A stretch of 64,000 nucleotides of DNA from Verrucomicrobia bacterium S94. Its GTDB lineage: Bacteria; Verrucomicrobiota; Kiritimatiellia; Kiritimatiellales; Pontiellaceae. The translations under genes were made by a program, and so were the position numbers. Location: positions 682,001 through 746,000 of the forward strand of contig CP036201.1 in the NCBI GenBank assembly GCA_004299845.1. Direction: 5' to 3'. Shown here piece after piece: positions 41,287 through 60,687 of the stretch. Every line of letters begins with the position of its first letter. The first letter of the stretch is position 1. The notes beneath the pieces are model-generated. The model was not told the DNA's origin. It saw only the letters and a program-made list of their open reading frames with translations, and made no database searches.

Positions 41287-41305
41287 GTTTATATGCAATT
41301 TTGCC
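41287..41305 (-). promoter_or_regulatory. Candidate galactan-regulon operator (site 1)
   Basis: GGCAAAATTGCATATAAAC on the minus strand, 80-98 nt before the start of the 38400-41207 gene. Close to site 4 at 55843. Confidence 0.4.
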
Positions 41306-41343
41306 ACAAGAAAGGCGCAACTCATTGTTGCGCCTTTCTTGTG
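41305..41343. terminator. Intrinsic terminator after PEP-CTERM gene
   Basis: A perfect 17-bp stem: CACAAGAAAGGCGCAAC with its complement, loop TCATT. It contains internal A/T tracts (GAAAGG, CCTTTC) and separates the PEP-CTERM gene from the downstream enzyme gene on the minus strand. Confidence 0.85.
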
Positions 41344-41360
41344 AAAATTGGCTTGGTTAT

Positions 41361-42176
41361 TTACATCATGAATCTGCGGCGGACAAACAGGAGACCGATT
41401 CCGACAGCTGAAACCATTCCCATTGTGGCCGGTTCCGGAACGGCTATGACTTCAAAGGAGGTTATAACGCGATCCGTGAGACCATGGACCGATTCGGCAC
41501 GCGATGAGCTGAATCCGCCATACAGGCTGGTTGCAGTAAAGAGATCTTCGGATGTTGTGATTCCGGTATCGGATATGCTTCCGATAACGCTGTCGGTGGT
41601 CTCATTATAAAGAGAGACCGTGTAGGACCAGTCATTTGAACTGGCCCCCGCAACCAGGTTGAGGGAAAACGTAATGGAATCACTGGTCGTGTCGCCGATG
41701 TCATCCAGACCAAACAGGGTGTCGGAAAATGTCGCGCTGCCCAAGTCGACGTCGAGGTCACTCTTAATCCCGAGTTTGTAGTTGTCGGTACCCAATCGGT
41801 TCAGATAAGCACGTATTGCGCTACTGCCATTTAGAGTATCGTTGATGATTAGGCTGAACGCATCATTGTTGCCAGTCGGGGCATTTTCAGTCCACGAAAT
41901 GGTCTGAGATACCGTGAAATCGTTATTGCCTGAATCGGCCCTCAGGTTTTCGCGGAATATCCCGTATTTCCATTGATCCGTTCCCGTGGCTAATATGACT
42001 GATCCGCCATCGGTTGGGTCGACTGTATTTCCGTTGGCATTCCAGGTGCTGCCACCGGCGGCTCCCTGCTCGTCCAATGCGCCGGCTGTATAGCCGGCTT
42101 CGTCAAAGCTCACTAGAGTTGCCTGTGCGTTGAAGACCGCGGCAATCACCGTGAGTCCAAGTATCCGGTTTTTCAT
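41361..42176 (-). CDS. PEP-CTERM secreted protein
   Basis: A 271-residue protein. It has a signal peptide (ILGLTVIAAVFNAQA), one beta-sandwich-like domain and a sorting tail (VPEPATMGMVSAVGIGLLF then RRRFMM). The start at 42176 has AAAGGAG 6 nt upstream. Its domain (SDSITFSLNLVAGASSNDWSYT, GSISDTGI, LYGGFSS) is related to the N-terminal domain of the 46502-48946 protein, which lacks the PEP tail. It lies between the two lambda-carrageenase-like genes, so a role in carbohydrate binding or cell-surface display is plausible. Confidence 0.88.
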   Translation of the reverse strand: MKNRILGLTVIAAVFNAQATLVSFDEAGYTAGALDEQGAAGGSTWNANGNTVDPTDGGSVILATGTDQWKYGIFRENLRADSGNNDFTVSQTISWTENAPTGNNDAFSLIINDTLNGSSAIRAYLNRLGTDNYKLGIKSDLDVDLGSATFSDTLFGLDDIGDTTSDSITFSLNLVAGASSNDWSYTVSLYNETTDSVIGSISDTGITTSEDLFTATSLYGGFSSSRAESVHGLTDRVITSFEVIAVPEPATMGMVSAVGIGLLFVRRRFMM

Positions 42177-42313
42177 ATTATGCTCCTTTTTTGCTTTCTG
42201 CATCATTACATGTAGCTTGAATACGAGTCATGCTGATGAAAACCGGATGATTGCGAAATATACATAACGGCCAATGATATATGAAATATTGTCAGCACCT
42301 CTTTTTGAGGGGA

Positions 42314-45300
42314 TTATGGTTGGGTGATTTGAAGCCGGAAAAAGAGATTTTCTTTTGCTGAGCCGTCGAGAGTTTTTTCGGCAAGATCATAGGCGGGATT
42401 GGTGGTGGCTGAACTCGAATAGGAAGACCAGTTGGAGAGCCAAGGTCCGGAAACAAGGTTGGTGGTCCATTCCTGAATGTAGCTGACCCCGGGGTTGGTA
42501 TGGACGAGCTGAGGATGTGCAAAGCCCATGGTGTTGTCGGGATAAAAATTTATCCAGGGTTTCGGCGGGGTGGAGCCGGGATCGTTCGGATCGCCGCCGA
42601 GGGCATATTCCATCTGATCAGACACGCCGTCGCTGTCGGTATCCGACCACGAATTTCCGGGCAAACCGTTGGTGCTGGAAAATTCGCCCCAGCCGTTATC
42701 GGGGAAAAAAGGTTCGTTCAGTTCAATGTCGATGAAACGCCAGAGGCCCAGTGGTACATCGATGGTGGCGGAGTTATCGGAAACGGGAAAAGCGGTTCCG
42801 TCCATGATGTCACTTACCGCAACAGGGGAAACCGTGTTGAACGTAACCGTTGCCTGTCGGTCTTTGGGGTTGAGGTAACCGCTGTCCACCAGCGTAAGGC
42901 GCAGGTGGGTGGGGGCGGTTTGGGCGACAACCCAGGCGACGTTTCCGGACACGGTTACAGGTAGTTTTGCGGCACTGTTCGTGATGGCATTGGCGACAGT
43001 GATGTAGAAGGTATCTGCTGCGTAGGTTGCGGCTCCGTCGCTGGAAATATAGTGCCGTCCGTTGCTGATGAATTCCTGCATGATGTTTTTATACATGGGG
43101 TGCAGGTGATCGGTCATTTTTCCGCGTGCGGCGTTGGTGTTTGCAAACATGCCGTCCTGTACCGGCGTTACCAGTACGATTCCGTTCGGATAGGGCGGAA
43201 TAAAGTTCTGGCGCCGGTCTATTACGCCGGCGGCATAGCGTGAGAAATCCCATTCCGTGTTCGGTGCGGCGGGCCAGGTTCCGTTCATACGACTGAAAAC
43301 AAACGGATTATTCTCTTCAAAGGATTGATCGTAGAAAGTGGTCCATTTGTTATTTTCACCGTCTTCAAGGTAGTGTTCATCGGGGTCATGCATGCTCAGA
43401 TGTACCGGAGAGAAGCTGACAATCTCTTCCCGTTTCGGAATGTAAAGAGCGCCTTTGGCGATGAGTTCCCAGGCGAGGCTCAGGTAGTCGGCATCCACGT
43501 ACGTAATGTTGAGCATGGTTGCTCCGCCGGCCAGGTTGTAAACCATATTCCGCAGGAAGTGGTTCGGCAGGCGCTGATAGGAGTGCTGGCGCTGGCGGTC
43601 GAAGCTCGGGTTGTCGCGGGAGCAGCGCATGCCCCAGGTATCGAGTGCGCCGCTGGCCCACAGTCCCATACGTCCGGCAACACTCAGCTCACAGGTTTTG
43701 TCCGAGGTCTCTTCCAGTAGTGAGGTGAAGGCTTCGGCAAATTCGCCGTTGCGCATACGTTCCCAGGCGGGAAGATATACAGCACCCTGCCAGAAGATGT
43801 TTTTATTGCGGATAAAGATATGGGCGTTGTTGGTCCGGGCATATTCCGCAAGCGGATAGAAACGGTCTTCCATCACCATTTCAAACGCGTCGGACGAACC
43901 ATTCATTTCCGGCCAGATCAGGCAGGTTTTTTCGCCGTTCTGCAGATCAATGATGCCTTTAAGGGTGTCCAGACTGTAATAATAGGGATCGTTGCCATGA
44001 CCGCCCCACATGGCGATTCCTTCGCCGCCGTCATCTTCAGTCGCCACCTGACCGAGAATCCAGGATTCGGTTTTGGTATAACTCCGGCGGCCGTCGCGTT
44101 TATCGCGATATTCCGGATTTGAGGCCAGCACGGTATCGCGGTCCCAGTCGTCGGGATCCTGCGCATAGCTGTCCCAGTAATAGTTCATAAACACCGGTGT
44201 GTCGGAATAGCTCATGATATCCTGAGCCACCGGGTGGGACGGGTTTGCGGCCGTCAGAACGACCTCCACCGGGTCACGTTCCCATGCCGGTTTGGTAAAG
44301 GTTTCCAGCAACGTTTTTATCTGATCCGTGTTGGCAATGATGGAGGCGATTTTTCCGGGGGGTTCGAGTGCTTCAAAATCGGAATGCCAATCGGGATGCT
44401 GGGGGTCGATAATATGAATGCAGCTCCCGCCACTTTGCGCCGAGGCAAGCAGGATTTTGCCGGAAGAAGAATCCTGCCAGAGATCATTGAAGGCATAGGA
44501 GCACTGATAGTTTACGGCCGAGCTGACCAGATTGCTGTCGCCACTCGGAGCTGCATCCAGCAGTGTCGCTCCGCACAGAACAAAAATTTTATTTTCGTTT
44601 CCGTCCGGATAGTAGACCGCCTGGGTCACCCGGTAACCGGTATCCTGCTTATTGCCTGTAAGAATCCAGCTCCGTTCTTCGAGAGTTGCCGGATTAAAAT
44701 GAACAATCTGGTCATCGTTCAGTCCTGACGATCCCATCAGCACTTCGAAATTTCCATCACCGTCCTCATCGACAATCTGCATATCGCCCAGCACTTTCGG
44801 CCCACCGATATCGTGGGTGAGGTAGGGGAGATCGGCCAGCGGTTCAAAGAAGTAAAGTTCGCCATTTACCTGCATGGCATTACAGGAACCGTGCACCACC
44901 AGTTTTTCACTGCCGTCGTTTTGGGGCAGTGGACGGAGAAAAGTGGCGTTATGCAGATTATCGGGCGGCGCGTTGTCGCCCCAGGGGTTGGAAATGGAAT
45001 AGGTTTCGGAATAGATCGATTTAACCGGTGTGCCGGCGGCATCGAGATAGCGGATATATTTATCGTAAGCACCGCAGACCACATAAGGGGTTCCATTGGA
45101 ATGGACCGTGCATACCGTGTACATCGGGGGAAGGTGCCCGCTGTTGTTCGGGGTATAGTTCCAGAGGTTGGAACCGGTCGCGCTGTTTACGCAATAAACA
45201 AGACCGTCGGCACTGGCCGCCAGAATTTCATCGGATCCGTCACCGGTGAGATCATCGCACCAGAGATCGTGATTCATGTAACCCGAGAGATGGTTGGTCC

Positions 45301-46177
45301 AGAGCGCCGTACCGTCCCAGGTCATACCGATCAGGGCTCCTTCATAAGTGCTTCCGATAATCAGCGTGTTGGTGCCGTCCGTTGCCGTGCGGACTTTCTG
45401 AATGGTCCATCCGGTGTCGATACTGGTCAGTGGTTGCGGGGTATCAGGATTATTTCCGGCGGAGAGCACTGCCTGGTCTACGATTCCGCCGCTGCCGTCT
45501 TCGGTGGCCAGCCGGATTCCGATGTAATCATATTCACTGATATCATCAAGGCCACTACCGAAGCCTGACAGCGGGAGGTCGCTGGAAAAGGTCTGCATCA
45601 GAGCGGCTGTCCCTGTAAAAGTTCCATGAGACTGGTTGACTTCGGAGGTGCTGTAATTGCCGGTAAGAAAATCGGTATGGCCGGCGGTTCCGTTAAGTGT
45701 GCCGATTTTCCTGGAGGCGTAATTGAGCCCGACAAAAAATTTTCCGCTTTCCGGGGTGTCTGTTTTTTTCCAGCCGATGATCTGATAGGTCAGGTTAAGC
45801 TGGGTTCCCGAAGCACCGGCAGGCGGCATCCAGTTGACCGAAAACTGAATGACATTTCCTGTGGCCGATCCGACGGAAATCACCTGGGTGAGTCCACCCT
45901 CTGAGCGGGTTGTAGTATTTGAAGCATTCCCGTTGCTGAGGTCCCAGCTGCCTTTATGGTCCCAGCCGGCATCCAGTTCTTCAAATGCGGTCTCATTGTT
46001 TCCGGTATTTGCTTCGGTGCCGTTGACAAAAGATCCGTCGATCATAAAATTGCCATGCGCGGTTTCAATCATTACGGCAAGCAGCAGGCCGGCGAAAATC
46101 CGGATGCCGGATATCGCCTGACGGTTTACGGCGCGCCGGGTGCACAATGGTTCTTTCCCCCTTTTAATACTGTTCAT
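42314..46177 (-). CDS. Large secreted beta-propeller glycoside hydrolase, lambda-carrageenase-like paralog
   Basis: A 1287-residue paralog of the 38400-41207 protein with extra parts at both ends. After a signal sequence (IRIFAGLLLAVMIETAHG) comes an added beta domain of about 190 residues. Then follow the propeller (DDLTGDGSDEILAASADG, DEDGDGNFEVLMGSSG) and the shared module (MWGGHGNDPYYYS, DNPSFDRQRQHSY, LPNHFLRNMVYN, GALYIPKREEIVSFSPVHLS). The C-terminus is a Ca-binding-like DTDSDGVSDQMEYALGGDP turn plus a terminal beta domain ending LFFRLQ. The start at 46177 has AGGAG 5 nt upstream. The added domains suggest surface anchoring or substrate binding. Confidence 0.6.
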   Translation of the reverse strand: MNSIKRGKEPLCTRRAVNRQAISGIRIFAGLLLAVMIETAHGNFMIDGSFVNGTEANTGNNETAFEELDAGWDHKGSWDLSNGNASNTTTRSEGGLTQVISVGSATGNVIQFSVNWMPPAGASGTQLNLTYQIIGWKKTDTPESGKFFVGLNYASRKIGTLNGTAGHTDFLTGNYSTSEVNQSHGTFTGTAALMQTFSSDLPLSGFGSGLDDISEYDYIGIRLATEDGSGGIVDQAVLSAGNNPDTPQPLTSIDTGWTIQKVRTATDGTNTLIIGSTYEGALIGMTWDGTALWTNHLSGYMNHDLWCDDLTGDGSDEILAASADGLVYCVNSATGSNLWNYTPNNSGHLPPMYTVCTVHSNGTPYVVCGAYDKYIRYLDAAGTPVKSIYSETYSISNPWGDNAPPDNLHNATFLRPLPQNDGSEKLVVHGSCNAMQVNGELYFFEPLADLPYLTHDIGGPKVLGDMQIVDEDGDGNFEVLMGSSGLNDDQIVHFNPATLEERSWILTGNKQDTGYRVTQAVYYPDGNENKIFVLCGATLLDAAPSGDSNLVSSAVNYQCSYAFNDLWQDSSSGKILLASAQSGGSCIHIIDPQHPDWHSDFEALEPPGKIASIIANTDQIKTLLETFTKPAWERDPVEVVLTAANPSHPVAQDIMSYSDTPVFMNYYWDSYAQDPDDWDRDTVLASNPEYRDKRDGRRSYTKTESWILGQVATEDDGGEGIAMWGGHGNDPYYYSLDTLKGIIDLQNGEKTCLIWPEMNGSSDAFEMVMEDRFYPLAEYARTNNAHIFIRNKNIFWQGAVYLPAWERMRNGEFAEAFTSLLEETSDKTCELSVAGRMGLWASGALDTWGMRCSRDNPSFDRQRQHSYQRLPNHFLRNMVYNLAGGATMLNITYVDADYLSLAWELIAKGALYIPKREEIVSFSPVHLSMHDPDEHYLEDGENNKWTTFYDQSFEENNPFVFSRMNGTWPAAPNTEWDFSRYAAGVIDRRQNFIPPYPNGIVLVTPVQDGMFANTNAARGKMTDHLHPMYKNIMQEFISNGRHYISSDGAATYAADTFYITVANAITNSAAKLPVTVSGNVAWVVAQTAPTHLRLTLVDSGYLNPKDRQATVTFNTVSPVAVSDIMDGTAFPVSDNSATIDVPLGLWRFIDIELNEPFFPDNGWGEFSSTNGLPGNSWSDTDSDGVSDQMEYALGGDPNDPGSTPPKPWINFYPDNTMGFAHPQLVHTNPGVSYIQEWTTNLVSGPWLSNWSSYSSSATTNPAYDLAEKTLDGSAKENLFFRLQITQP

Positions 46178-46501
46178 CCTGACTCCTCTGATATCCAAAG
46201 CATGATATTTATAACCTGCCTAAAATAACGAAGGTTCAAAGGGTGGAACTATAGGTAATAACGCATTGTTTATGCGTATAAACGCCAATTCCGGAAGGGC
46301 GAAAAAAAGACGGATATTTCCGGTTCAGACGGATTTTTCGGCGTATGGCAAAATTTCGCATCTTTATTACAACATCGTATATAGCTCAGGTTCTGAAAAA
46401 CCGTTTCTCTCTCGCTGTTGAATGAGCCGCTGTGGGCGGCGCGCTTCTTCCGCAGGATGATCAGAAGCGAAATGGATAACCTCCAGAGGAGATAAAACAG
46501 G
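46178..46501. promoter_or_regulatory. Divergent promoter region with two candidate operators
   Basis: 324 nt between two divergent galactan genes. It holds GGCGTTTATACGCATAAAC (minus, 46268-46286, including the inverted repeat ACGCAT/ATGCGT) and the core TTTCGCATCTTTATTAC inside 46347-46370 (plus). Both resemble the sites upstream of other genes in the locus. Confidence 0.4.
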
Positions 46502-48946
46502 ATGAAGATGAATAAACAATATGTTGCTTTAGGTCTGGGCCTGATGCAGGCGGTAGCGTTGCAGGCTGCCACGGTTGATTTTACCGCGGTCGAGGGGTAT
46601 GTGACCGGGTTGCTGAATGATAACAGCAACTGGAGTGCGGACCAGTGGACGGTTGATGCCGCTTCCGGAACCTGCACGGAAGACGGTTATAAAAGTGCAA
46701 TATATGTAACGGAATCCGCGGCATTTTCCGAAGGCCTGGGCTATAAAGTATCCGCTGTCTTTACTTTTGAGGATCTTTTTGATCCGTCGAGTAAGCAAAG
46801 AAAGCCGTTATTTAATACCGGGTTTTCGGCGACCAACGATGTGTTCAGTCTGAGCGATCAGCTGGTGCTGTCATTTGATCGTGAAAATATGAATTATTCA
46901 ATCGACCTGCAGTCTGACTGGGGCTCTAACGGTGGCGATAATGTAGTAGGAACCGGCGGAAGTGCCAGTGATACGTTTTCTGCTTCTGACGTCGGCATCA
47001 CACGGGGAGTTGATGAAGGGAGTTCGAATCTGGTGAGTGACCGGATTCAGCTGACCTTCATGTTGACTGCCGGCGAAACCACGAATGACTGGATTGGTAC
47101 GGCTGTGGTAACCAATCTTGATACCGGTGCTGAAATCGGGAGTTTCACGGCGACCGGGCTGAGTTTTGATGCCTCCGAGCTGTATGGTTCATTCGGAACA
47201 GGACAGTCGGATAGTAATGCCGGTGTCAGCAATCGTACGGTATATTCTTTCTCCTTTGATACCTTTACTGCTCCGGAGCCGGTAGAGCCGCCTCCGACCA
47301 TTGTTCAGTGGGGTGTTTCCGGCGGAGACTCGGATATTGTGACCAACGACACCTCCAATGCTGGTCCTTATCCGACCACCTACGCGGCAGGAGCCGTTCA
47401 CAGCCCGACCAATGAGGCCTACTATACCAACAGCACAGACCGTACTCCGGATTACAATCTTGCGGTATCTGAACCGTGGGGGACCGTTACGGTGAAAAAC
47501 GGTGGTGACTATGTTCAGCTGGGTAAAAATGCAGCCTTCTTTGAAGGCATGATTGTCTGGGAAAACTTTCTGACCAATAATACGCTGGTAAAAACGCTGG
47601 CTGCTGAGGTTCAGGGCTCCGGTGGTGGATTCATTGTGGAAAGTAATTCGACTTTCCGGTTTATTATCCAGAAGGGAACCGGTGAATGGTATGCCAGTAC
47701 TCCGACGTTGCTGAATACCGAATACACCTCAGGAGCGGATGTGGATGCCGCATCGCTGGACTGGTATGCATTTACTCCGGTTACTGCCGGGTCGGCCACC
47801 GTCGGCACAACGGTGGAAGATATCGATATGACCGATGTTAAGGCTGTCGGTATTTACGGTCTTATGGGCGGCCTTACCAATACGGCGTTCCAGGCGTTCA
47901 ATGTACGTTACTTCAAAGCAACGGCTGTACCGGGCCCGACTTCAACGACGTTGCTGCAGTGGGGTGCTCCGGGTGGTGAACAGGATATTGTTACAGCAAC
48001 CGTGAATTTCAGCGAACCTTCTCCGATAACGTATGTTGAAGGGGAAACCAACAGTCCGGCGGTTGGTCCTGACTATTACCCGAACAGCACGGATCGCTCG
48101 CCGCTGTTTAATTATGCCTGCGGAGCGGCTTATGGTAACGCAAGCATCTGGGAGGATGTCGCTGGTGATGCGATCTATTTCGGTAAAAATCAGCCGGAGT
48201 ATGAGGCTATGGTGACCTGGGGTGAGTTCCTGGAAGAGCCGACGCTTGTCAAAAATCTGGAAATCGAGATCGGCTATCTGAACAGTGCGACAAATGGAAC
48301 AGTACGTTTTCTGGTGAAGAGTGCATCAAGCGGTAACTGGTATGCCAGTGAAGCCATGGAAGTGACGGGAAGCTATGCTACGCTCAACCGTTCGCTGGAG
48401 AGTCTGTCCTGGTTCAGCTTCACTCCGCTTAACGGAGGTGTCGGTGCGGTAGGGTCGGTGGCATCGATCGATAACACCGATATCGCTTCTGTCGGTTTTT
48501 ATGCCGTTCTTCAGGGTAACGGCGGGTTCCAGGCGGTACAGGTTCGATCCTTTAAAGCTGTCGGAGTGACCGGTTCGTTGCCGACGGCCTATGATACCTG
48601 GGCTGCTGCTGCAGGAGTAACCGGCGGTGCGACTGATGATGACGACGGTGACGGACTCAATAACTACGGGGAATATGTATTCGGCGGGAATCCCGTATTA
48701 CCATCCGGTGCGGCGGATCAGGGAACCCAGCCGGTATTTGATACGGAAACCGGTATTTACACAGTATCGCTTATTGGTGACAGTTCGGTTGAGGCCTATG
48801 TTCTGACCTCCACGGATCTGGTGATCGGCAATTGGACCACCAATGAAACCATCACAGTCACGGTGGATGATGGAGTGCTCGGGGAATACACCAGCACCGT
48901 CGGAACCGATCAGGATAAGAAGTTTATTAAACTCGAAGTAAAATAA
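46502..48946 (+). CDS. Modular secreted protein with two QWG modules
   Basis: An 814-residue protein with no catalytic signature. The signal peptide is YVALGLGLMQAVALQA. Residues about 20-258 form a beta domain related to the PEP-CTERM protein at 41361. Two tandem modules of about 210 residues follow: 263-475, opening TIVQWGVSGGDSDIVTN, and 482-690, opening TLLQWGAPGGEQDIVTA; both share NSTDR-P, WYAS and -FKA. Residues 715-814 are a DDDDGDGLNNYGEYVFGGNP turn and terminal beta domain. Probably carbohydrate-binding or surface-structural. Divergent from the large enzyme gene. Confidence 0.72.
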   Translation: MKMNKQYVALGLGLMQAVALQAATVDFTAVEGYVTGLLNDNSNWSADQWTVDAASGTCTEDGYKSAIYVTESAAFSEGLGYKVSAVFTFEDLFDPSSKQRKPLFNTGFSATNDVFSLSDQLVLSFDRENMNYSIDLQSDWGSNGGDNVVGTGGSASDTFSASDVGITRGVDEGSSNLVSDRIQLTFMLTAGETTNDWIGTAVVTNLDTGAEIGSFTATGLSFDASELYGSFGTGQSDSNAGVSNRTVYSFSFDTFTAPEPVEPPPTIVQWGVSGGDSDIVTNDTSNAGPYPTTYAAGAVHSPTNEAYYTNSTDRTPDYNLAVSEPWGTVTVKNGGDYVQLGKNAAFFEGMIVWENFLTNNTLVKTLAAEVQGSGGGFIVESNSTFRFIIQKGTGEWYASTPTLLNTEYTSGADVDAASLDWYAFTPVTAGSATVGTTVEDIDMTDVKAVGIYGLMGGLTNTAFQAFNVRYFKATAVPGPTSTTLLQWGAPGGEQDIVTATVNFSEPSPITYVEGETNSPAVGPDYYPNSTDRSPLFNYACGAAYGNASIWEDVAGDAIYFGKNQPEYEAMVTWGEFLEEPTLVKNLEIEIGYLNSATNGTVRFLVKSASSGNWYASEAMEVTGSYATLNRSLESLSWFSFTPLNGGVGAVGSVASIDNTDIASVGFYAVLQGNGGFQAVQVRSFKAVGVTGSLPTAYDTWAAAAGVTGGATDDDDGDGLNNYGEYVFGGNPVLPSGAADQGTQPVFDTETGIYTVSLIGDSSVEAYVLTSTDLVIGNWTTNETITVTVDDGVLGEYTSTVGTDQDKKFIKLEVK

Positions 48947-48993: not shown

Positions 48994-49066
48994 ATGGCGG
49001 AATGACGAATGTCTTTTACGGTAAACAGTATAGTGTTAGAGTTCTCAAAGCCGTATATTAAAGGGT

Positions 49067-50653
49067 ATGAATGGAACTGATAAGGGTATGACTGTGGAGA
49101 TCGAACAGGGCTCTTCCGCCGGTCTGTGTCCGGTTTATGATCCGGAATGCGGAGAGGGAAAATATATTCTGACTCCACCGCCTCCGGTGCGGCCGGTCAT
49201 TAACGGTCCATCTGTTGTCGGTATCCGACCGGGCTCACCGATGCTGTACAAAATTCCGGTCACCGGAATCCGGCCCATGAGCATTTCTGTTCGGAATTTG
49301 CCGGAGGGGTTGAGTCTGAATGCCGAATCGGGTTGTATCAGCGGAACCATTGTGAGTCCGGAATCTGCCGACTATGTTCTTCATCTGGTTGCCGAAAATG
49401 AAGCGGGTCGTGCTGAAAAAATGTTTACGGTTAAAGTCGGAAAGGAAATCTGCCTGACTCCGCCGCTGGGCTGGAATTCCTGGAACTGCTGGCGGACGGA
49501 GGTTACACAACAGCATGTGCTGGATTCCGCCCGGGCGATGGTGGATAGGGGGCTTATTGAATATGGCTGGAGTTACATCAATATCGATGATGCCTGGCAG
49601 GGCCGGCGCGGGGGAAAATATAACGCTATTCAGCCCGATCCGGACCGGTTTCCGGATATGGGGAAACTGTGTAATGATATTCATGGACTGGGGCTCAAGG
49701 TCGGTATTTATTCCTCCCCCTGGATTACGACGTATGCCGGGCACATCGGGTGTTCCAGTGACAGTTCCGCCGGCGACTGGACGTGTAATTTCGGTCAGAA
49801 CGATATTGCCGCAAGAAAATCCTGTTTCCGCGTGGGCAAATACCGGTTTGAAGAAGAAGATGCCCGTCAGTGGGCGGAATGGGGGATTGACTATCTGAAA
49901 TATGATTGGAATCCCAACGACCGCGTCAGCACACGGCGTATGGCGGAGGCTTTGAGAAGGTGTGGCCGCGATATTGTGTATTCGCTTTCAAATTCAGCCC
50001 CGATTGAAAATGCAGATCTGTTCGAAGAAGAAGTGAACTGCTGGCGAACTGCCGGTGATCTGAAAGATGTCTGGGATCAGGAGTGTTTTCACCTGAATCT
50101 CTGCGAGCAATGGACCGCTCATCGGAACTGGCTCGAAAACGGGACCCGTGGAGGCCCGGGCCATTTTCCCGATGCCGATATGCTGGTGGTGGGCGATTTG
50201 ACGACGGCCGATGGATATCAGGGTTGTCCGGTTCCGTCGCGGTTGACGGTTGAAGAGCAGTACACGCATATTTCGCTCTGGTCGCTCTGGTCGTGTCCGC
50301 TGCTGATCGGGTGTCCGATTGAGATGATGGATGATTTTACACTGGGTCTGTTGACGAATTCGGAAGTGCTGGCTATCAATCAGGATGAGCGGGCGGTTGC
50401 CGGATATTCCATTGATCTCAATGAGGAGATTGAAGTGATTGTGAAAAAGCTGGCTGATGGCGGCAGAGCCATTGGGCTGTTTAATAAGAGCGAAATAAAA
50501 CAGGTGATTTCCATAGACTGGGAGACCGTGGGGCTGAAGGGGGCGCAACAGCTTCGGGATGTGTGGCGGCAAAAGGATATCGGCACATTCAGAGACCATT
50601 TTTCAGCGGTTGTGCGTCCACATGGAGTTGTGCTGATTCGTAGTATGAATTGA
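49067..50653 (+). CDS. GH27 alpha-galactosidase with N-terminal Ig-like domain
   Basis: A 528-residue protein. Residues 35-130 form an Ig-like (He_PIG) domain (PVINGPSVVGIRPG, LPEGLSLNAESGCISGT). The GH27 barrel begins at PPLGWNSWNCWRTEVT. The likely nucleophile is D280 (LKYDWN) and the acid/base D331 (CWRTAGD). It also shows INIDDAWQ, GLKVGIYSSP, PGHFPDADML and a C-terminal Greek-key domain. It would remove alpha-linked galactose from galactan fragments. No signal peptide is seen, so it may act in the cytoplasm or leave by another route. A sulfatase gene follows within 20-50 nt. Confidence 0.92.
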   Translation: MNGTDKGMTVEIEQGSSAGLCPVYDPECGEGKYILTPPPPVRPVINGPSVVGIRPGSPMLYKIPVTGIRPMSISVRNLPEGLSLNAESGCISGTIVSPESADYVLHLVAENEAGRAEKMFTVKVGKEICLTPPLGWNSWNCWRTEVTQQHVLDSARAMVDRGLIEYGWSYINIDDAWQGRRGGKYNAIQPDPDRFPDMGKLCNDIHGLGLKVGIYSSPWITTYAGHIGCSSDSSAGDWTCNFGQNDIAARKSCFRVGKYRFEEEDARQWAEWGIDYLKYDWNPNDRVSTRRMAEALRRCGRDIVYSLSNSAPIENADLFEEEVNCWRTAGDLKDVWDQECFHLNLCEQWTAHRNWLENGTRGGPGHFPDADMLVVGDLTTADGYQGCPVPSRLTVEEQYTHISLWSLWSCPLLIGCPIEMMDDFTLGLLTNSEVLAINQDERAVAGYSIDLNEEIEVIVKKLADGGRAIGLFNKSEIKQVISIDWETVGLKGAQQLRDVWRQKDIGTFRDHFSAVVRPHGVVLIRSMN

Positions 50654-52343: not shown

Positions 52344-52385
52344 GATATCGTCTGTAGTGGTTCCGGGATAAACCATGAATAGTTG

Positions 52386-52413: not shown

Positions 52414-52439
52414 CTTTGCGTAATAAGAGAGGGATGACG

Positions 52440-55400
52440 ATGATGAGTTCCATTTATTGGAAGTTTGCTGCGATTATCGGTCTGGTGTTGTGTGCAGGCT
52501 ATGTTCGGGCAGATCTTGAAAGCAATGCGCGGGCGAAGATGGCGGCACTTTCGAACCTGGTGACGCAGGCGGAGGGGCAGGGGATCGATACGCTGCAGGA
52601 GCGGACGACGCTGCGCACGGCCGAGATTTTTCTGTTTTATGCGGATTGGGACGAAGCCAATACGAACCTCAATGCCCGGATTTTTGAACTGGGTGGTAAC
52701 TTCAGCGACGATCCGGAAACCTGGGCGGCTTATATGCCGGAGTTTGAGCGGCAGGACGTGATCACTATGCTGGACTCGTGTACTTCGAATCTGACACGGC
52801 TGATCAGTGGTGAGATTTCGCGTGAGCCTGCTCCGCAGGTCGACTGGGCATCGGTGACGCATGACGGGGATCAGCTGACGTTTAACGGCCGCCCGGTTTT
52901 TTTGGCGGATTATACCTGGAAACCGGGGGATGCGTGGCTGACGGAGTATCACGGTGAGCAGGACGGGTTTTATTTTGACCCGAACAAAATTTCGAATGCT
53001 TCAGGGGTCATTAATCAGTGGACGATGAATGATCTGACGAATAAGCCCTCCGGCACACTGGGCTTTATTTTTCTGGGGAATAAAGCGGCACCGGACTGGG
53101 CGGAAGAGGAATACGGTCCGGGGTTCCAGATGCGGGAAGATACCTATACGGGATATGATATTGATAATCCCGGTGCGCGCGAAATGCTGAGTTTTCTGTT
53201 CGATGCCTGTGTGCCGTATATGAGCGGGAAAAATTTTTCCGAACTCGGTTATATGCTTTGCAATGAACCGCATTTTTACACCACCAAGGAAAAGGATTCG
53301 ATGGATCCGGATGACTGGGGCTGGGCGCGCGGGCCGGTTTCGGAATATACCATGGATAAATTCAGGGTATGGCTGCAGGATCGGCATGCAACAATCGGAG
53401 ATCTGAATGCGCTGTGGGGTACGGCATTTGCTGATTTTGATGCGGTGGATCTGGATATTCCGATTTATGAAGGACTGCAGGGTACGCCGCAGTGGTATGA
53501 CTGGGTGCGGTTTAATCAATGGCGTGTAACAGAGTGGTATAAATGGGTCAAAAGTGCAATCCGTGCCAATGATCCGGGGGCGAAGGTGCATCTGAAAATC
53601 ATGCCGAATCTGTGGAGCGAAAACAGTCGCGGGCACGGCATTGATATGGAGGCGCTGACGGAACTGAGTGAGATTATCGGAAACGATGCGGGGGCGGATC
53701 ATACCAACTGGTGGGGCAAAGCGCTCTGGTGGGAGGATACCTATGCATTCGACTGGCGGGAAATGTGTATGTCGTACGATTTTTATAAGTCGGTCAGTCC
53801 GGATAAAATCACCTTTAATTCCGAGGCCCATTATCTTTCAACCGGCAGTTCGCGGAATCTTTTTCTGGATCCGGCCTATGCACGGGCGACCTGCTGGCTG
53901 GCGCATCTGCACGGTCTGAATGCCAGCCAGATCTGGTTCTGGGCGCGGCAGAGTGATGGGTCGCCGAGGAACGGCGTAAATGTCGGTACCGGATGGTGGG
54001 GGTCGAACAATTTCCAGCCGCGTGTGGTGAACGAAGTGGCGCTGACCATGCTGGACCTGAATACGTTTTCAGAAGAGGTGATGGCCATGCAGCGCCAGCG
54101 TAAACCGATTCGTATTTTTTATTCAGAGACATCGGCCATCAATAAAGCGGAGCACATGGATGATGTTTTTGAGCTTTATAAGGAGCTTTATTTCGAGGGG
54201 ATTCCGATAGGGTTTGTGACGGAAAATATTCTGAACAATCAGAGCCACAGTCTCTGGGATGTGGTGCTGGTGCATAAGAGCGAATTTGTGACGACCAATG
54301 AAGTGGAGGCACTGCAGGCCTATCTGGATGCCGGCGGTACGGTGGTGATGGATTCGGAAAGTCTGCAGAAAGATGAATACGGACGGGCTGTTTCCGGTTT
54401 GATTGAGTCTGCCGGCACACTGACCAATGTAACGACGCTGGCGGAGATGAAGCAGCTGGCGTTAAGCGTTGTCGAGTTGCCGGATGTGCAGATTGCAGAG
54501 ACAAACGGAATCGGGGCAAAAGGCTGTGCGTGGAAATGTGTGACGAATGAGGCGGGGAATGCGGTGGTTTCGGTGGTGAATGCAGGAAAGTCCACGGCGT
54601 CGCTGTCGGTCTCTTTAGCGGGAGCATCGGATGTGATCTGCACGAATCTGCTGACCGGAGAAGCGTTCTCTTCTTCCTTTTCTCTGGAACCGTTTGAGAT
54701 GCGTTTTTTTGAAGTGGTGCCAGTCGATGTTACTCCGCGTCTTTTAACGGTTGTGCAGTGGGGCGAACCCGGAGGGGATGACTCTATTGTGACCAATACT
54801 CAGAACTTTGTTCCTTATCCGTCTTTCAGTACCTATACCTATGGCAGTACAGCATCGCCGCTTCCGGGACCGGATTATTATCCGGATAGCAACGGTCGCA
54901 CTCCGGTGTTTAATCACGCATCGAAGAATACGTATAATGTTAAGCAGGTTACTGATGGCGGCGCGGAGGGCGATTATATTACCACGGCAAAAAATGATCC
55001 GGCCTATACCGCAATGGTGGTGTGGGAGAATTATCTCACCAATGCCTATATGCTGGATCGTCTTGAAATTGAAACGCGGGTGAATAATTCAGCCGATACG
55101 GCCTCGCAGTTCCGCTGGCTGGTACGGAAAATGAATGGGCAATGGTATGCCAGTGAAGCAGTGGATACGACAGATTCGTTTACACTTTACACGGCGGAAG
55201 ATCCCGGGAACCTGAACTGGTATGATTTTACACCGCATGTAGGCAGTGTGGCGACGGTCGGGAGCAGTGCTTCAATTACCATGGAGGATATTAATGCCGT
55301 CGGCTACTTTGCGACCTTTCAGCAACCTTCCAATAACGTATCTTATCGTGCCAGTGAAACCCGTTATTTCAAAGCCGAGGCTTACAATGCTCTTCCTCAG

Positions 55401-55784
55401 AACGGGTGGGATGATTTCGTTATAAAATATGATCTGAGCGGTGATCCGGATGCCGATGCTGATGCCAACGGCGTCAGTGATTTTATGGAGTATGCCCTGG
55501 GCGGGAATCCAACCAATCCGGCCGATCAGGGCATTACGCCGAATGTTGAATATCAGCTGGATGATACCGTTCATTATTATCATGTGGCCCTGACCAATCC
55601 GAATTCCGGCGTGGTGTATGATGTGGAGTGGGCCACCAACCTGGTGGTCGGCGGGTGGACGAACTGCTTTGATTCAATGACGAACCGTCCTTCGGGATAT
55701 GACGGAATGGGTGAGGTTGAGTATGAGCTGAACGGCTCGGGAAAAGATCAGTTGTTTTTCCGTCTTCAGGTTCAGGAATCCTGA
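52440..55784 (+). CDS. Secreted GH42-like clan-A galactosidase with QWG module
   Basis: A 1114-residue secreted enzyme with signal peptide YWKFAAIIGLVLCAG. Clan-A beta-galactosidase-like barrel: acid/base E276 (MLCNEPHF), nucleophile E462 (FNSEAHY) and GH42-type features (GLNASQIWFWAR). A GH42-like flavodoxin-fold domain follows (PIRIFYSETSAINKAEHMD, YLDAGGTVVMDSES), then a small beta domain, one QWG module (769-985, TVVQWGEPGGDDSIVTN) and the C-terminal DANGVSDFMEYALGGNP module ending LFFRLQ. Related families include GH42 and the carrageenan-active GH167; I cannot separate them by eye. AGAGGG sits before ATGs at 52440 and 52443. Confidence 0.78.
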   Translation: MMSSIYWKFAAIIGLVLCAGYVRADLESNARAKMAALSNLVTQAEGQGIDTLQERTTLRTAEIFLFYADWDEANTNLNARIFELGGNFSDDPETWAAYMPEFERQDVITMLDSCTSNLTRLISGEISREPAPQVDWASVTHDGDQLTFNGRPVFLADYTWKPGDAWLTEYHGEQDGFYFDPNKISNASGVINQWTMNDLTNKPSGTLGFIFLGNKAAPDWAEEEYGPGFQMREDTYTGYDIDNPGAREMLSFLFDACVPYMSGKNFSELGYMLCNEPHFYTTKEKDSMDPDDWGWARGPVSEYTMDKFRVWLQDRHATIGDLNALWGTAFADFDAVDLDIPIYEGLQGTPQWYDWVRFNQWRVTEWYKWVKSAIRANDPGAKVHLKIMPNLWSENSRGHGIDMEALTELSEIIGNDAGADHTNWWGKALWWEDTYAFDWREMCMSYDFYKSVSPDKITFNSEAHYLSTGSSRNLFLDPAYARATCWLAHLHGLNASQIWFWARQSDGSPRNGVNVGTGWWGSNNFQPRVVNEVALTMLDLNTFSEEVMAMQRQRKPIRIFYSETSAINKAEHMDDVFELYKELYFEGIPIGFVTENILNNQSHSLWDVVLVHKSEFVTTNEVEALQAYLDAGGTVVMDSESLQKDEYGRAVSGLIESAGTLTNVTTLAEMKQLALSVVELPDVQIAETNGIGAKGCAWKCVTNEAGNAVVSVVNAGKSTASLSVSLAGASDVICTNLLTGEAFSSSFSLEPFEMRFFEVVPVDVTPRLLTVVQWGEPGGDDSIVTNTQNFVPYPSFSTYTYGSTASPLPGPDYYPDSNGRTPVFNHASKNTYNVKQVTDGGAEGDYITTAKNDPAYTAMVVWENYLTNAYMLDRLEIETRVNNSADTASQFRWLVRKMNGQWYASEAVDTTDSFTLYTAEDPGNLNWYDFTPHVGSVATVGSSASITMEDINAVGYFATFQQPSNNVSYRASETRYFKAEAYNALPQNGWDDFVIKYDLSGDPDADADANGVSDFMEYALGGNPTNPADQGITPNVEYQLDDTVHYYHVALTNPNSGVVYDVEWATNLVVGGWTNCFDSMTNRPSGYDGMGEVEYELNGSGKDQLFFRLQVQES

Positions 55785-55842
55785 TTGTTTATCCTGTTTA
55801 GATGGGGGCTCATGGCGGCCTCTGTCGGCTATATATACCGCT

Positions 55843-55867
55843 GGCGAAATTGCATATCTTTTTTGCG
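55843..55867 (+). promoter_or_regulatory. Candidate galactan-regulon operator (site 4)
   Basis: Begins GGCGAAATTGCATATCTTTT, about 150 nt before the 56017 gene. It shares AAATTGCATAT with site 1. Confidence 0.4.
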
Positions 55868-56016
55868 GGAAGGCATATAGAAAATCGCGGGGTATCTGGT
55901 TACCTATAATCATCAGGCAAAGGCGTTGTAACGCCCGGTTCTGATGAGAGGCGATTCATGTTCATTGGCAAAGGTGAATCGCAGGATGAATCAGTACAAC
56001 AAAAGGGAGAAGTGCA

Positions 56017-59000
56017 ATGAAGAGGAATGCCTTGTTTTCCGCGCTGTTCATTGGTGCGGGTCTGGTCTCCGGATCATGGGGACAGAGTATCATTAATGAC
56101 GATTTTTCGTCGTATGCGGATGGTGATCTTGCCGGTCAGGGAGACTGGCTTGAAGTGGTTGCTTCCGGAGCGGGAGCGGAGGCTTTTTCGATTTCAAACA
56201 ACATGGCGATATCTAAAGCTGAAGGAAGTTCCGGTCTTGATTTTTATGTCCGTCTGGATAACACCCCTGCCGGGAATGCGGTGGATGATGAGTGGGACGG
56301 CAGCATGAACTGCACGCTCAACTGGACCGGAACAAGCTGGCGGCACGGGGCATATTTCAAAATCGGCACTTCAACGACGGTGACCAACGGACTCCGGAAT
56401 GCCAGTGCGGATGATGTTCCGCTGATTATCGAAACCGGATGGCCGGATGAGCTTTATATCGGTACAGCCGACGCAAGCGGGGCATTTGTCGAATGTTTGA
56501 CCGTAACGGCAGGTGATCTGGGTATGACCATTGGCAGCGAGCTTGATTCGGATCCGCTGACGATTACATGGAATGTGCGAAAAACGCGGGACAGCGGATT
56601 TTATAAAATTACGGCATCTTTGATGAATACGCTGACCGGATCAAATTATCCCGGTTCGACGGTCTCCATCGAAAAGCCCGGAGCGTACGCTGCCACCACC
56701 CCGTATTACATGATGGGACTGCCCAAAGGGTTCAGTTGGTGGGATGAGGATGTACAGTACTGGAAGGGAATTCACATTGATTCGCTCAGTCTGACGAAAT
56801 CATCCGGTAATGCTCCGGTGTTGATTCCGACAGAGGTATCTGCTTTCGGGAAAGACAATGCGGTGCTGCTGTCCTGGGATCCGGTGGTTGAAGCGGATTC
56901 ATATGATATTCTGAGATCCGATACGGAAGTCGGTGGATACACTGTGGTGGCCGGAGGCAGCGGGATTACGACCAACGGTTTTACGGACACTACCGCGATC
57001 AATGGTAATACATATTGGTATAAAGTGGTGTCAAAGGCTTCCGGGGCCGCCGATGTGGAATCGGAACCGGTTTCGGGTACACCGATCATGATTGTTTCTG
57101 GAACCTTCCTGGATACAAGCTTTGCGGCTTCCGATGTCCCGGCTTATGCCGATGGGGATCTGGCCGGTCAGAACGGATGGGCTCCACTCACGGCTTCGCT
57201 TCCCGGTGCTTTTAATATTGATTCGTCGGGTGATGGAATGGCTGAAACGGATGGCCTTACGGCTACCGGCGGGGTGCATCAGGTATACTATACGTCGCCG
57301 ACTTCCAATGAGGTTTCCGCAACCTGGAGCGGTACCGTGGTCTTCTCGCTATCAACTGATCCGGACGGAATCTACAAAACCAATATCACTGATGGGGTCA
57401 CCAACGTATATGAAGTTGCTTATCTGGGCAGCGGATATCAGACCTTCATGTTCGGTCTGACATCCAATCCGGATACCCTCCTTGATCCGACCGATGGCGA
57501 TAAAGAGGCCGGCAGTGACGATGATGTGCTGATCTCCGCCCGGGTGGGTGGAGATGATGGGCGTGTGGATATCAGTATCAATAACTTCAACTGGGCTGAA
57601 AACATTATGCTGGCGCTGAATCGCGAGCAACTGGGCTGGGACCCTGCCGGTATGGATATCAGTGCAACCAATGGTGCTGATTTTGTGACGGATACGATCA
57701 CGCTGGATTATGTGATCCGTAAGTCGGCGGATAATCTGGCTTACATGGGCACCTGCACAGCCACAGTGGCCGGTGTGACCTATGAAGGCAGCTGGCACAC
57801 GACGGCTGATGATAACGAGTGGGGTAAGCCGACGGTTGTCTGGGATGAGCCGCTGGTTTATTTCGGGATGAGCCGGGGTGCTCCCAGTGCGGAACAGCAG
57901 GTGAATGTATCGGTCGATGCAGTTTCCGTTACGCATACACCTTCAAGTGATCCGGTTATCCTGCCTCCATATGGTCTGGCCGGTACACTGGGGAATCTGG
58001 AGATTACTGTAGACTGGAAAAACTATGGTGAAGAGCTCAGTTATAACATATATCGGTCGGAAACCAACGGTGGTCCTTATATGCTGCTGGGTAATGTATC
58101 TTCCAATGAGACCTCTTATCTGGATTCCGGGTTAACCGATCTGCGATCCTATTTTTACAGGGTTTCTTCTGTTTATCCGGAGGGAGAAAGTGAACTCTCC
58201 AGTCCGATTGTGGTCCGAGCATTGGGTCGGACACTTCATCTTGAGTGGGGTGGTGATGTCACGATGTCGTCGGGTAATAACTGGGCAACCGGATTAAGTG
58301 CTCCTACAGTTGCCGGAAATTTGAACTACTGGCAGGGCGAAGGGGTTGAACCTTATTCCGTTATCGGAAGTTCCGATTCCTGGTATGCCAATCCGCCGCA
58401 TCCGGACCTGAAAGGAGTTGTTCAGGCCCCGACTAACAGCACATATGATGCAAACCGGCCGAATGTTGAATTTCGCTGGAATACCGGGGCCCGCTTCCGT
58501 TTTGCTGAAGGTGCTTCGGCCCTGTTCTGGGTTGATTGTCCTGCACTGGACAATACGGTGAATGAAGTTACCGGCGAGTGGGACAAATACCAGTGGTATT
58601 GCTTCCCGGCCATCCGTAACGGATCAACCTGGTATGTGGCCGAAAGTTCGCTGAATGCTGACCGCAGTCTGGATCTGGGGGATGAGCGCTGGACGACCAT
58701 TACGCTGGCTTCCTCTTCGGATACCAACCTGATGGTTCGGGAGGGGACCTATGCAACCGGTGATGAAATCGGTTTTGATGATATCAACGCCTTCGGCTTT
58801 TTTGCTGAAAATGCTGCCGCAGACAATGATGCCTGGGTTAGTTATATGCGTCTTCTTTACGGAAGTTCTCCTTCTGCATTCCAGGTGTGGTGCGATGAGC
58901 AGGGTATCTATAATGAAGATGCTGCAGAAGGTGTGGATCTGGATGGCGACGGTGCGGATAATCTGTACGAATGGGGTATGGGTGGTAATCCGCTGGATGG

Positions 59001-59280
59001 TACGGATGTCGGCATTACTGAGCGCAGAATACAGATCGATGGCGGAAACTTCGTCTACATCTATCCGCGTTTGAAAGGGGTGCGTCCCGATTATAAAATC
59101 ATGGCGGCTGACAATCTGGTTATCGGCGGTTTTGATGAAACACTGGTGGAAGGTGTGGACTATACCGAAGTTTCTGCCGGTGGTGACTGGGCCTCCTGGG
59201 CTACGGAGTTTGAGGCGGTCACCAACGCCATTCCCACTTCAGGCAGTCCCGTTCGGTTCTTCAAGACTGCCGTGGAATAA
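56017..59280 (+). CDS. Large modular secreted protein with Fn3-like repeats
   Basis: A 1087-residue protein with no catalytic motif. The signal peptide is LFSALFIGAGLVSGSWGQ. Two related beta domains both open with YADGDLAGQ (about 25-265 and 370-650). Each is followed by a fibronectin-III-like domain (LLSWDPVVEADSYDILRSDTEVGGY; ITVDWKNYGEELSYNIYRSETNGGPY). Then come a diverged QWG-type module (738-955, LHLEWGGDVTMSSGN) and the C-terminal DLDGDGADNLYEWGMGGNP module. It probably binds substrate or cell-surface glycan. It is followed by a strong terminator. Confidence 0.72.
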   Translation: MKRNALFSALFIGAGLVSGSWGQSIINDDFSSYADGDLAGQGDWLEVVASGAGAEAFSISNNMAISKAEGSSGLDFYVRLDNTPAGNAVDDEWDGSMNCTLNWTGTSWRHGAYFKIGTSTTVTNGLRNASADDVPLIIETGWPDELYIGTADASGAFVECLTVTAGDLGMTIGSELDSDPLTITWNVRKTRDSGFYKITASLMNTLTGSNYPGSTVSIEKPGAYAATTPYYMMGLPKGFSWWDEDVQYWKGIHIDSLSLTKSSGNAPVLIPTEVSAFGKDNAVLLSWDPVVEADSYDILRSDTEVGGYTVVAGGSGITTNGFTDTTAINGNTYWYKVVSKASGAADVESEPVSGTPIMIVSGTFLDTSFAASDVPAYADGDLAGQNGWAPLTASLPGAFNIDSSGDGMAETDGLTATGGVHQVYYTSPTSNEVSATWSGTVVFSLSTDPDGIYKTNITDGVTNVYEVAYLGSGYQTFMFGLTSNPDTLLDPTDGDKEAGSDDDVLISARVGGDDGRVDISINNFNWAENIMLALNREQLGWDPAGMDISATNGADFVTDTITLDYVIRKSADNLAYMGTCTATVAGVTYEGSWHTTADDNEWGKPTVVWDEPLVYFGMSRGAPSAEQQVNVSVDAVSVTHTPSSDPVILPPYGLAGTLGNLEITVDWKNYGEELSYNIYRSETNGGPYMLLGNVSSNETSYLDSGLTDLRSYFYRVSSVYPEGESELSSPIVVRALGRTLHLEWGGDVTMSSGNNWATGLSAPTVAGNLNYWQGEGVEPYSVIGSSDSWYANPPHPDLKGVVQAPTNSTYDANRPNVEFRWNTGARFRFAEGASALFWVDCPALDNTVNEVTGEWDKYQWYCFPAIRNGSTWYVAESSLNADRSLDLGDERWTTITLASSSDTNLMVREGTYATGDEIGFDDINAFGFFAENAAADNDAWVSYMRLLYGSSPSAFQVWCDEQGIYNEDAAEGVDLDGDGADNLYEWGMGGNPLDGTDVGITERRIQIDGGNFVYIYPRLKGVRPDYKIMAADNLVIGGFDETLVEGVDYTEVSAGGDWASWATEFEAVTNAIPTSGSPVRFFKTAVE

Positions 59281-59381: not shown

Positions 59382-60527
59382 TCAGGCCCGCATACGTTTG
59401 CGATATGCACTGGGGCTGCAGCCGGTAACCTGTTTGAAAACCTGAGTCAGATAATTATAGGTTGTATAGCCGCATTCTTCGGCAATGATTTGTAATGGTT
59501 TATCAGTTTCAACAAGCAGCTTGCGGGCATGGTTAATGCGGACCTGCCGGATTTCATCAAACGGTGTCCGGCCGAAAGCCTTCTGGAAACGGCGTTCAAG
59601 TGTGCGGCGGCTCATGGGAATCACGTTGAGAATGTCATCCATTGTGATGGGCTCAAAAGCGTGCTCCCTCAGATAATTTATAAGGGGGATCAGTGCCGGG
59701 TCGTCGACCGCGAGGGTGTCGGTGGACAGATGTTCGCGAATACCCAGGGGAGGAATAAATGTGGTTTTGTGGGGAACGTCTTCACCGAGCATCATCCGGT
59801 GGAGCAGTTCCGCAGCTTTATAGCCGATCTGTTCTGTGGGAAGCAGGATTCCGGAAAGCGGCGGATTGCTGGCATGGCACATCAGTTCATCGTAATTTCC
59901 ACTCAGTACAGCAGCGTCATGTGGGACTTTAATGCCGGCTGTACGGCAGGCTTCGGTGATCTGACGACCGATGCCGTCGGCATAGGCGAGAATCCCGACG
60001 GGTTTGGGCAGCTCTTCCAGCCATTGAATTAGGTTTTCCTGGAGCCTGCTTTCATCACGTGAGCTGAAAAAGCAGGGACATTTAAAACCACGGGTGTGAA
60101 GGACACGTCGGTATTCCTCCGTATACCATGAAACATTGGCCAGATAGTCGGGGGCGGCGAACGCGAGGTTTTTAAATCCGCGCTCGATGAAAAATTCGGC
60201 GGCCATCACTGTGGAAACGGAATCATCCGTTCGGACATAAGGAAATGAGAAACCTTTGAGGTAGCTGTCTTCAACACTTACTGTCGGGATGTTCCGCTGC
60301 GTGAGTTCTTCGGCCAATGAGGGCGATATAATGCGGCCAATAACGCCGTGACCCTTCCAGTCTTCGGGAAGTCGTTTAATTTTCACAGGGGAGGTGGGAC
60401 GAATCCATACATCCCAGAAACCGGCCTCACTGGCATAGGAGAGAATTCCCTTAAGAATCTTCCGCCCCCAGTCGGTCGGCGTACCCATCATAATGGCAAT
60501 GCGCGGAGTTTCGTTTGGTTTCAGCAT
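59382..60527 (-). CDS. XylR-type AraC-family sugar-responsive regulator
   Basis: Residues 1-275 form a periplasmic-binding/LacI-like sensory domain (RIAIMMGTPTDWGRKILKGI, GHGVIGRIISPSLAEEL, AAVLSGNYDELMCHASNPPLSGI). The last 100 are an AraC DNA-binding domain (MDDILNVIPMSRRTLERRFQKAFG, LQIIAEECGYTTYNYLTQVFKQVTG). This matches E. coli XylR architecture. It is the only regulator within the galactan locus and the best candidate for binding the repeated GGCAAAATTTCGCAT-type sites. One such site (60530-60553) lies right before its own start. ATG 60527 is chosen; 60548 is possible. Confidence 0.9.
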   Translation of the reverse strand: MLKPNETPRIAIMMGTPTDWGRKILKGILSYASEAGFWDVWIRPTSPVKIKRLPEDWKGHGVIGRIISPSLAEELTQRNIPTVSVEDSYLKGFSFPYVRTDDSVSTVMAAEFFIERGFKNLAFAAPDYLANVSWYTEEYRRVLHTRGFKCPCFFSSRDESRLQENLIQWLEELPKPVGILAYADGIGRQITEACRTAGIKVPHDAAVLSGNYDELMCHASNPPLSGILLPTEQIGYKAAELLHRMMLGEDVPHKTTFIPPLGIREHLSTDTLAVDDPALIPLINYLREHAFEPITMDDILNVIPMSRRTLERRFQKAFGRTPFDEIRQVRINHARKLLVETDKPLQIIAEECGYTTYNYLTQVFKQVTGCSPSAYRKRMRA

Positions 60528-60529
60528 GC

Positions 60530-60553
60530 GGCAAAATATCGCATGCATATTCG
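60530..60553. promoter_or_regulatory. Candidate galactan-regulon operator (site 5)
   Basis: Begins GGCAAAATATCGCATGCATA. It abuts the regulator's start codon, as expected for autoregulation. Confidence 0.4.
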
Positions 60554-60660
60554 TGATTACGCAATTCTTTTTCAGTACGCACTACGGAGATGATGTGCGG
60601 TATCCGGCAGAAAATCAGGGGAATGGATGGCTCCGTCTCCTCCGGGGTTCAGGTGTGATT

Positions 60661-60687
60661 ATTTCGTATGTTTATTACGCAAATGAC
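60661..60687 (+). promoter_or_regulatory. Candidate galactan-regulon operator (site 6)
   Basis: Includes TTTCGTATGTTTATTACG, which matches the TTTCGCATCTTTATTAC core of 46347-46370 at 15 of 17 shared positions. About 95-120 nt before the SHD1 gene. Confidence 0.4.

Follow-up and report, generated by a model that had tools for sequence, protein, structure and literature searches.

Nine 40-bp sites strung along a lambda-carrageenan locus of Verrucomicrobia bacterium S94 are, on sequence grounds, almost certainly docking sites of the XylR-like protein encoded among them. A 40-bp matrix places nine full sites between positions 41267 and 62786 of the window (the whole 64-kb stretch of DNA analysed), in the promoters of nine out of nine transcription units; all nine point at the downstream gene and lie 32-135 nt before the gene start as listed. 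We consider it likely that they are operators of the regulator encoded at 59382-60527, which would switch on the nine units by class II activation in response to a carrageenan sugar and repress its own gene. What computation shows directly is the sites themselves, with their repeat structure, orientation and position, how far they are conserved and that they co-occur with a clade of regulators. An earlier note, made by eye, had described similar sites before most genes; the sequences it quoted are all in place, and the motif proves to be longer and stronger than noted and to precede every unit.

The locus and its candidate operators

Going by its genes, the cluster is a lambda-carrageenan locus, bringing together two GH150 genes, a GH110, a GH167-like enzyme, a GH27 and a sulfatase; GH150, expected of such loci, is present in two copies, and GH110 and sulfatase are both present as genes. 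The name "galactan locus" used in the earlier note is broadly right, carrageenan being a sulfated galactan, but should read (lambda-)carrageenan. A tRNA is the only Rfam match in the window.

The first matrix, 40 bp long, was built from the five clearest sites in both species (this genome and the related genome G040); those five score 39-45 bits, and four sites outside the training set were found at 48995, 60654, 62747 and 42255 (28.8, 25.2, 20.5 and 16.7 bits). Three candidate operators lie on the minus strand, as do their candidate targets. The site at 41267-41306 (40.5 bits; 25.1 in leave-one-out, with 0 background positions higher) precedes a GH150 lambda-carrageenase gene (38400-41264; Pfam CGLA_M, 8e-188), is conserved in G040, is picked by the blind motif finder described below and is followed after 21 nt by a TATATT -10-like box. 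Between the two GH150 genes, a PEP-CTERM protein gene (41361-42206; TIGR02595 21 bits against a cut-off of 16, Pfam PEP-CTERM 20.4, just below 20.7) has its own candidate operator at 42255-42294, which is conserved in G040 (L067:7195), is picked by the blind finder and rises to 33.0 bits in a refined matrix that includes it. The second GH150 lambda-carrageenase gene, with N- and C-terminal extensions (42314-46198; CGLA_M, 3.4e-188), is preceded by a site at 46248-46287 (39.0 bits; leave-one-out 19.9, 0 background positions higher) that is also conserved in G040.

Divergent to this last site, on the plus strand that carries all six remaining sites, 46346-46385 (43.6 bits; leave-one-out 30.3, 0 background positions higher; conserved in G040 and picked by the blind finder) stands before a candidate target at 46502-48946. 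This gene encodes an 814-aa protein of repeated accessory modules common to GH150 and GH167-like C-termini, with no match in Pfam, NCBIfam or PDB. The protein looks secreted, and its internal repeats recur at the C-termini of the GH150 enzyme at 42314-46198 and the GH167-like enzyme at 52383-55784 as well as in the loci of relatives; they are possibly an undescribed carrageenan-binding module.

The site at 48995-49034, conserved in G040 and followed 19 nt downstream by a TATATT -10-like box, precedes a GH27-like alpha-galactosidase gene (49067-50653; Pfam Melibiase_2, 1.2e-33) that forms one candidate target unit (49067-52256) with a sulfatase gene (50667-52256; Pfam Sulfatase, 4.1e-55). The next candidate target, a GH167-like gene (52383-55784; PDB 9whd, "GH167 glycoside hydrolase", E 4.8e-230), has its site at 52319-52358 (39.3 bits; leave-one-out 29.0; picked by the blind finder), and the gene for a 1087-aa protein with fn3-like domains but no further assignment (56017-59280), also a candidate target, has one at 55842-55881 (45.1 bits; leave-one-out 33.2; conserved in G040). 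Upstream of a candidate target for a 630-aa membrane-anchored protein, assigned to SHD1 by domain search (60780-62672), the site at 60654-60693 is without the GGC box in its first half, and its positions 10-38 are near-identical in G040. The last site, at 62747-62786 (34.9 bits in the refined matrix), is conserved (L068:7808), has a TATACT -10-like box 18 nt downstream and precedes a GH110 exo-alpha-1,3-galactosidase gene, likewise a candidate target, that starts at 62840 and runs past the end of the window (64000) to genome position 746637 (Pfam GLAA-B barrels; PDB 9beh, GH110A, E 1.2e-203). The sites at 42255 and 60654 are imperfect. In the earlier note's list, position 46268 corresponds to 46248-46287, while 42255 and 62747 had been missed.

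Motif statistics

Besides the nine sites, the window reaches at most 7.5 bits; the genome background, a sample of about 400 kb, peaks at 14.6. Genome-wide matches come from a sequence-model search. When each core site is left out in turn, the sites in this genome still score 19.9-33.2 bits and no background position scores above them. A blind expectation-maximization (EM) motif finder, restricted to promoter gaps and with raised pseudocounts, recovers the site in 8 of 8 promoter gaps with a log-likelihood ratio of 170, against 86-105 for 20 identically treated control sets, each made up of eight of this genome's promoter gaps; with the G040 gaps added it recovers the site in 16 of 16. When all 32 gaps in the window were searched with weaker pseudocounts, the finder converged on a low-complexity, terminator-like pattern and not on the motif.

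The earlier note had proposed running a motif finder on intergenic regions and asking whether the motif is concentrated here. The blind search recovers it from the promoter gaps, and it is indeed concentrated here, 9 of 20 genome-wide matches falling within 21.5 kb of a single-contig genome of 4.11 Mb. Since the model behind this density was trained on the same nine sites, the fair tests are the leave-one-out scores and the blind search. In an alignment of the syntenic G040 locus, the sites stand out as conserved islands amid strongly diverged intergenic DNA, and the conserved stretch is far longer than the roughly 20 bases noticed by eye.

Motif anatomy and promoter geometry

The motif is a tandem direct repeat of about 40 bp with a 21-bp period, TGGCRAAATnnCRYATnTnTTTTRCGnnATnnCRTATAG; the consensus from 63 sites in seven genomes is TGGCgAAATtaCGTATaTtTTTTGCGcaATtGCaTATAGc. 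Autocorrelation of the matrix is 0.74 at a shift of 21 and at most 0.24 at every other shift tested, and the matrix holds no inverted symmetry. The half-sites thus follow each other in the same direction at a distance of two helical turns, which is what a dimer of the AraC family would be expected to bind. The same absence of inverted symmetry rules out a palindromic, LacI-like operator.

A -10-like hexamer, TAnnnT, lies 18-19 nt past the 40-mer in 41% of 77 sites, homologous promoters included, as opposed to 0.8% at flanking offsets. It is weak at 42255, 46346 and 60654, so that a clear -10 does not accompany all nine promoters. A 17-bp spacer would place the -35 element on the last bases of the downstream half-site, where there is no TTGACA. 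AraC-family activators set a half-site over the -35 element, with the -10 at 17-bp spacing, and the layout read from these promoters is of class II activator geometry, the distal half-site lying on the presumed -35. The TATAG at the end of the motif is excluded as the -10 element itself by the clear -10 signal 18-19 nt further on. A sigma-54 promoter is ruled out by direct reading of the sites, in which the GG/GC spacing varies and falls short by one base.

The regulator and the proposed mechanism

The candidate operator binder (59382-60527, minus strand) combines a LacI-like sensor with an AraC helix-turn-helix (HTH). As the earlier note proposed, it is a XylR/AraC-type regulator: Pfam detects PBP1_XylR (PF22177, 35.7 bits, cut-off 27), Peripla_BP_3 (PF13377, 91.3 bits) and HTH_18 (PF12833, 84 bits), and the protein aligns over its full length with E. 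coli XylR (PDB 4fe4/4fe7; E 3.5e-51). The N-terminal XylR domain, the periplasmic-binding-protein-like sensor and the C-terminal AraC-type double HTH of XylR-type regulators are all present, and the two direct repeats next to the -35 element that are expected of XylR are found at the level of sequence (the 21-bp repeat, with the -10 at offset 18-19). Its start at 60527 was set by alignment with the G040 regulator, which is 87% identical. A search of contigs with the regulator returned a single relative, SZUA-380. In that metagenome-assembled genome (MAG), the contig breaks off within a second regulator (L082:6782-7180 / L036:2-400; HTH 77% identical) that lies next to a GH167-like gene, so that the locus of this species may hold two regulators.

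The presence of sites follows that of the regulator. Significant sites occur in exactly seven genomes, whether the search covers the 28 congeners or all 43 genomes of the order, and the same seven carry a regulator at least 50% identical. All five regulator-bearing genomes outside the training set are positive, and all 21 congeners without such a regulator are negative. Under random placement, 7/7 against 0/21 has a probability of 1/1,184,040, and 5/5 against 0/21, without the two training genomes, of 1/65,780; these values were worked out by hand and, the species being related, are guides rather than exact tests. In the genome G008, a GH150-like gene is present while a close regulator and the sites are both absent, so the correlate of the sites is more likely the regulator than the enzyme's mere presence. 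A carrageenan-degrading lifestyle and genome size partly confound the co-occurrence.

From these observations we infer binding by this protein, activation, the inducer and auto-repression. A regulator dimer, with two AraC-type DNA-binding domains under LacI-like sugar sensors, would sit on two direct half-sites, (T/G)GCRnAATnnCRYATA, set 21 bp or two helical turns apart along the same face of the helix. Of the two, the downstream one would overlap the position of a poor -35 element, with the -10 box following 18-19 nt later, a placement that makes recruitment of RNA polymerase, as a class II activator, the most likely consequence of binding a carrageenan breakdown sugar. The nine transcription units of the locus would thereby be switched on jointly. 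At further loci for sugar degradation in this genome, close paralogues would recognize sites much like these, and a lone reversed half-site over the presumed -10 and start of the regulator gene would most likely mediate self-repression.

A half-site at the regulator's own start

The earlier note also placed a site at the start of the regulator gene. It is there, as a lone inverted half-site and not as a full site: scored as a full site, 60530 reaches only 4.3 bits. The half-site (60529-60546, plus strand, 9.8 bits), a candidate for auto-repression, lies in the opposite orientation to the regulator gene, abuts its ATG (60527) and ends one to two bases before it. Just upstream is a second half-site (60547-60564, minus strand, 15.6 bits). 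Of 14 regulators with at least 49% identity, 11 have the same reversed half-site directly against the ATG or shortly before it. None of the next 8 has it, and among 38 distant relatives it occurs in 2, each from an AT-rich MAG. The 11 close regulators that bear it all fall in one clade (support 100/100). This conserved start-codon half-site is the least expected part of the system.

In 8 of the 11, the half-site is preceded at a distance of 16-19 nt by a TTG, which makes a -35/-10 pair plausible, with its -10 inside the half-site and transcription starting at or near the ATG. Given the half-site and this promoter layout, the regulator probably represses its own gene by blocking the polymerase. 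More tentatively, and with somewhat less than even confidence, we suggest that a single type of half-site serves this XylR clade in two arrangements, activating where it stands in tandem over the -35 and repressing where it stands singly and reversed, joined to the -10 and start codon of the regulator's own gene. On that proposal the regulator's own gene is probably leaderless, and a compact feedback circuit would have been kept through duplication of the regulator into several carrageenan and agar loci of Pontiella.

Sites and paralogues elsewhere in the genome

Weaker sites elsewhere stand mostly before genes of sugar degradation: two for GH2 enzymes, one each for a GH27 and a sulfatase, and the second GH110 gene. 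Others precede the genes of an SSF symporter and an FAD oxidoreductase and a number of genes without assignment. Some of these sites group near close paralogues of the regulator (1196749, HTH 64% identical; 3626564, 56%) or near a fragment of an HTH at 1514661 (58%). The more distant relatives at 1102351 (41%), 599435, 86205 and 1534180 have no sites within their 20-kb surroundings. The fragment (1514661-1514903; L154) is a short orphan frame holding an XylR-subclade HTH, 58% identical over that domain, near operator-like sites at 1507483 and 1513580, and its sequence suggests a regulator remnant or a broken gene.

The gene of the SSF sodium:solute symporter, which is remote from all carrageenan clusters, has a good site 344 nt ahead of it at 3785308 (L153:9309), and the symporter is a candidate for uptake within the regulon. 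Operator-like sites also stand before the genes of two related proteins of 444-475 aa (L084:4268-5602 and L172:7124-8551); neither has a Pfam family, the L084 protein has no PDB match, and they are candidates for an unassigned enzyme family of the regulon. A third GH150 gene, far from the locus (4009508-4010626; L022, L103, L155), has a frame of 494 aa as against 954-1294 aa for the other two and no operator nearby; it is possibly truncated or outside the regulon.

Alternative readings

That the sites are chance look-alikes, picked by eye in AT-rich intergenic DNA, has a negligible probability. In its favour, one eye-picked site was indeed wrong: the weak one that the earlier note put at 49044, before the GH27 gene, does not align to the motif, the real site there being 48995-49034. 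The leave-one-out scores, blind search, background scans and cross-species conservation all oppose chance, and we regard it as already refuted. It is also very improbable that an unrelated regulator or an alternative sigma factor reads the motif, with the XylR gene a mere neighbour. Our literature search found no regulatory study of this genus, which leaves some room for another reader. Against it, a 21-bp direct repeat is typical of AraC-family dimers, the presence and absence of sites track the regulator clade in 43 genomes, including the absence in G008, a half-site stands at the start of the regulator genes themselves, and direct reading of the spacing misfits sigma-54.

If a XylR-type protein is the reader, it might instead be a repressor that blocks the -35 and is freed by sugar in the fashion of LacI. 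The LacI-like sensor domain, the overlap of the site with the -35 position and the lone half-site so placed at the regulator's own start all lean that way. We nevertheless judge repression of the nine units improbable: these promoters have no consensus -35 where the site ends, a half-site over the -35 plus a -10 at 17-bp spacing is the layout of an AraC-family activator, and known XylR proteins activate, Vibrio XylRA being needed for growth on its substrate (PMC12125979). The main open rival to a picture of one regulator and one locus is that the sites belong to the whole XylR subclade, with several paralogues sharing one operator, more than one sugar signal and the local regulator as one reader; its standing comes from the sites beside the close paralogues and their absence at distant ones. 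Similar sites accompany 1196749, 3626564 and the fragment at 1514661, the consensus is almost identical across seven genomes, and four close regulators, or pieces of them, could share the sites within this genome. We still find a shared operator unlikely, though clearly less so than repression, as the density of sites is far higher here (9 in 21.5 kb) than elsewhere and the 41% paralogue at 1102351 is without sites within its 20 kb. Activation by the local regulator remains the reading that we prefer.

Significance and comparison with known systems

A literature search returned no paper on a carbohydrate regulon in Kiritimatiellota, so this is apparently the first mapped operator and regulon of a polysaccharide locus in the phylum; a XylR/AraC regulon is a familiar type of control, newly mapped in a little-studied group. 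Co-regulation would assign the unannotated genes at 46502, 56017 and 60780 to the use of lambda-carrageenan. The 40-bp motif can also serve to find further carrageenan and agar genes, the symporter and the FAD oxidoreductase being candidates already flagged, and should help where sulfatases and glycoside hydrolases abound in a genome and the clustering of genes is by itself a poor guide.

E. coli XylR activates the xylose operon from two direct repeats next to the -35 element. The present regulator resembles it in full-length homology, in joining a LacI/GalR-like sensor to an AraC DNA-binding domain and in the direct repeats by the -35; the half-site sequence differs, and the candidate targets are carrageenan genes instead of xylose genes. 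E. coli MelR represses its own gene through a single site over its transcription start. It shares with this system a single operator at the regulator's own start, although sequence and protein subfamily differ and the site here abuts the ATG.

For the locus itself, a close counterpart is the lambda-carrageenan cascade of Pseudoalteromonas distincta U2A, with two GH150 enzymes, a GH110 and sulfatases (PMC12549532). Both have two GH150 genes, a GH110 and sulfatase; the U2A cascade has a GH2 where this locus has a GH167-like enzyme and a GH27, and the word "regulator" is absent from that report. In Zobellia galactanivorans, CgrA (ZGAL_3159) is an AraC-family positive regulator of a carrageenan locus (PMC5698469), which likewise pairs an AraC-family protein with carrageenan genes. 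That bacterium belongs to the Bacteroidota and the pathway is for kappa- and iota-carrageenan; within the excerpt of the report, no operator is described, GH150 and GH110 are unmentioned and a XylR-type sensor is not established. XylRA of Vibrio sp. EA2, a gammaproteobacterium, serves a system for xylan and xylose, and the excerpt of its report notes no half-site at a start codon. XylRA is an activator whose AT-rich motif of two direct repeats precedes several operons of the beta-1,3-xylan locus, as shown by gel shift and mutation (PMC12125979). The likeness to the present system lies in pairing a XylR-type protein with direct repeats that recur ahead of a number of operons, all belonging to the same locus for a marine polysaccharide.
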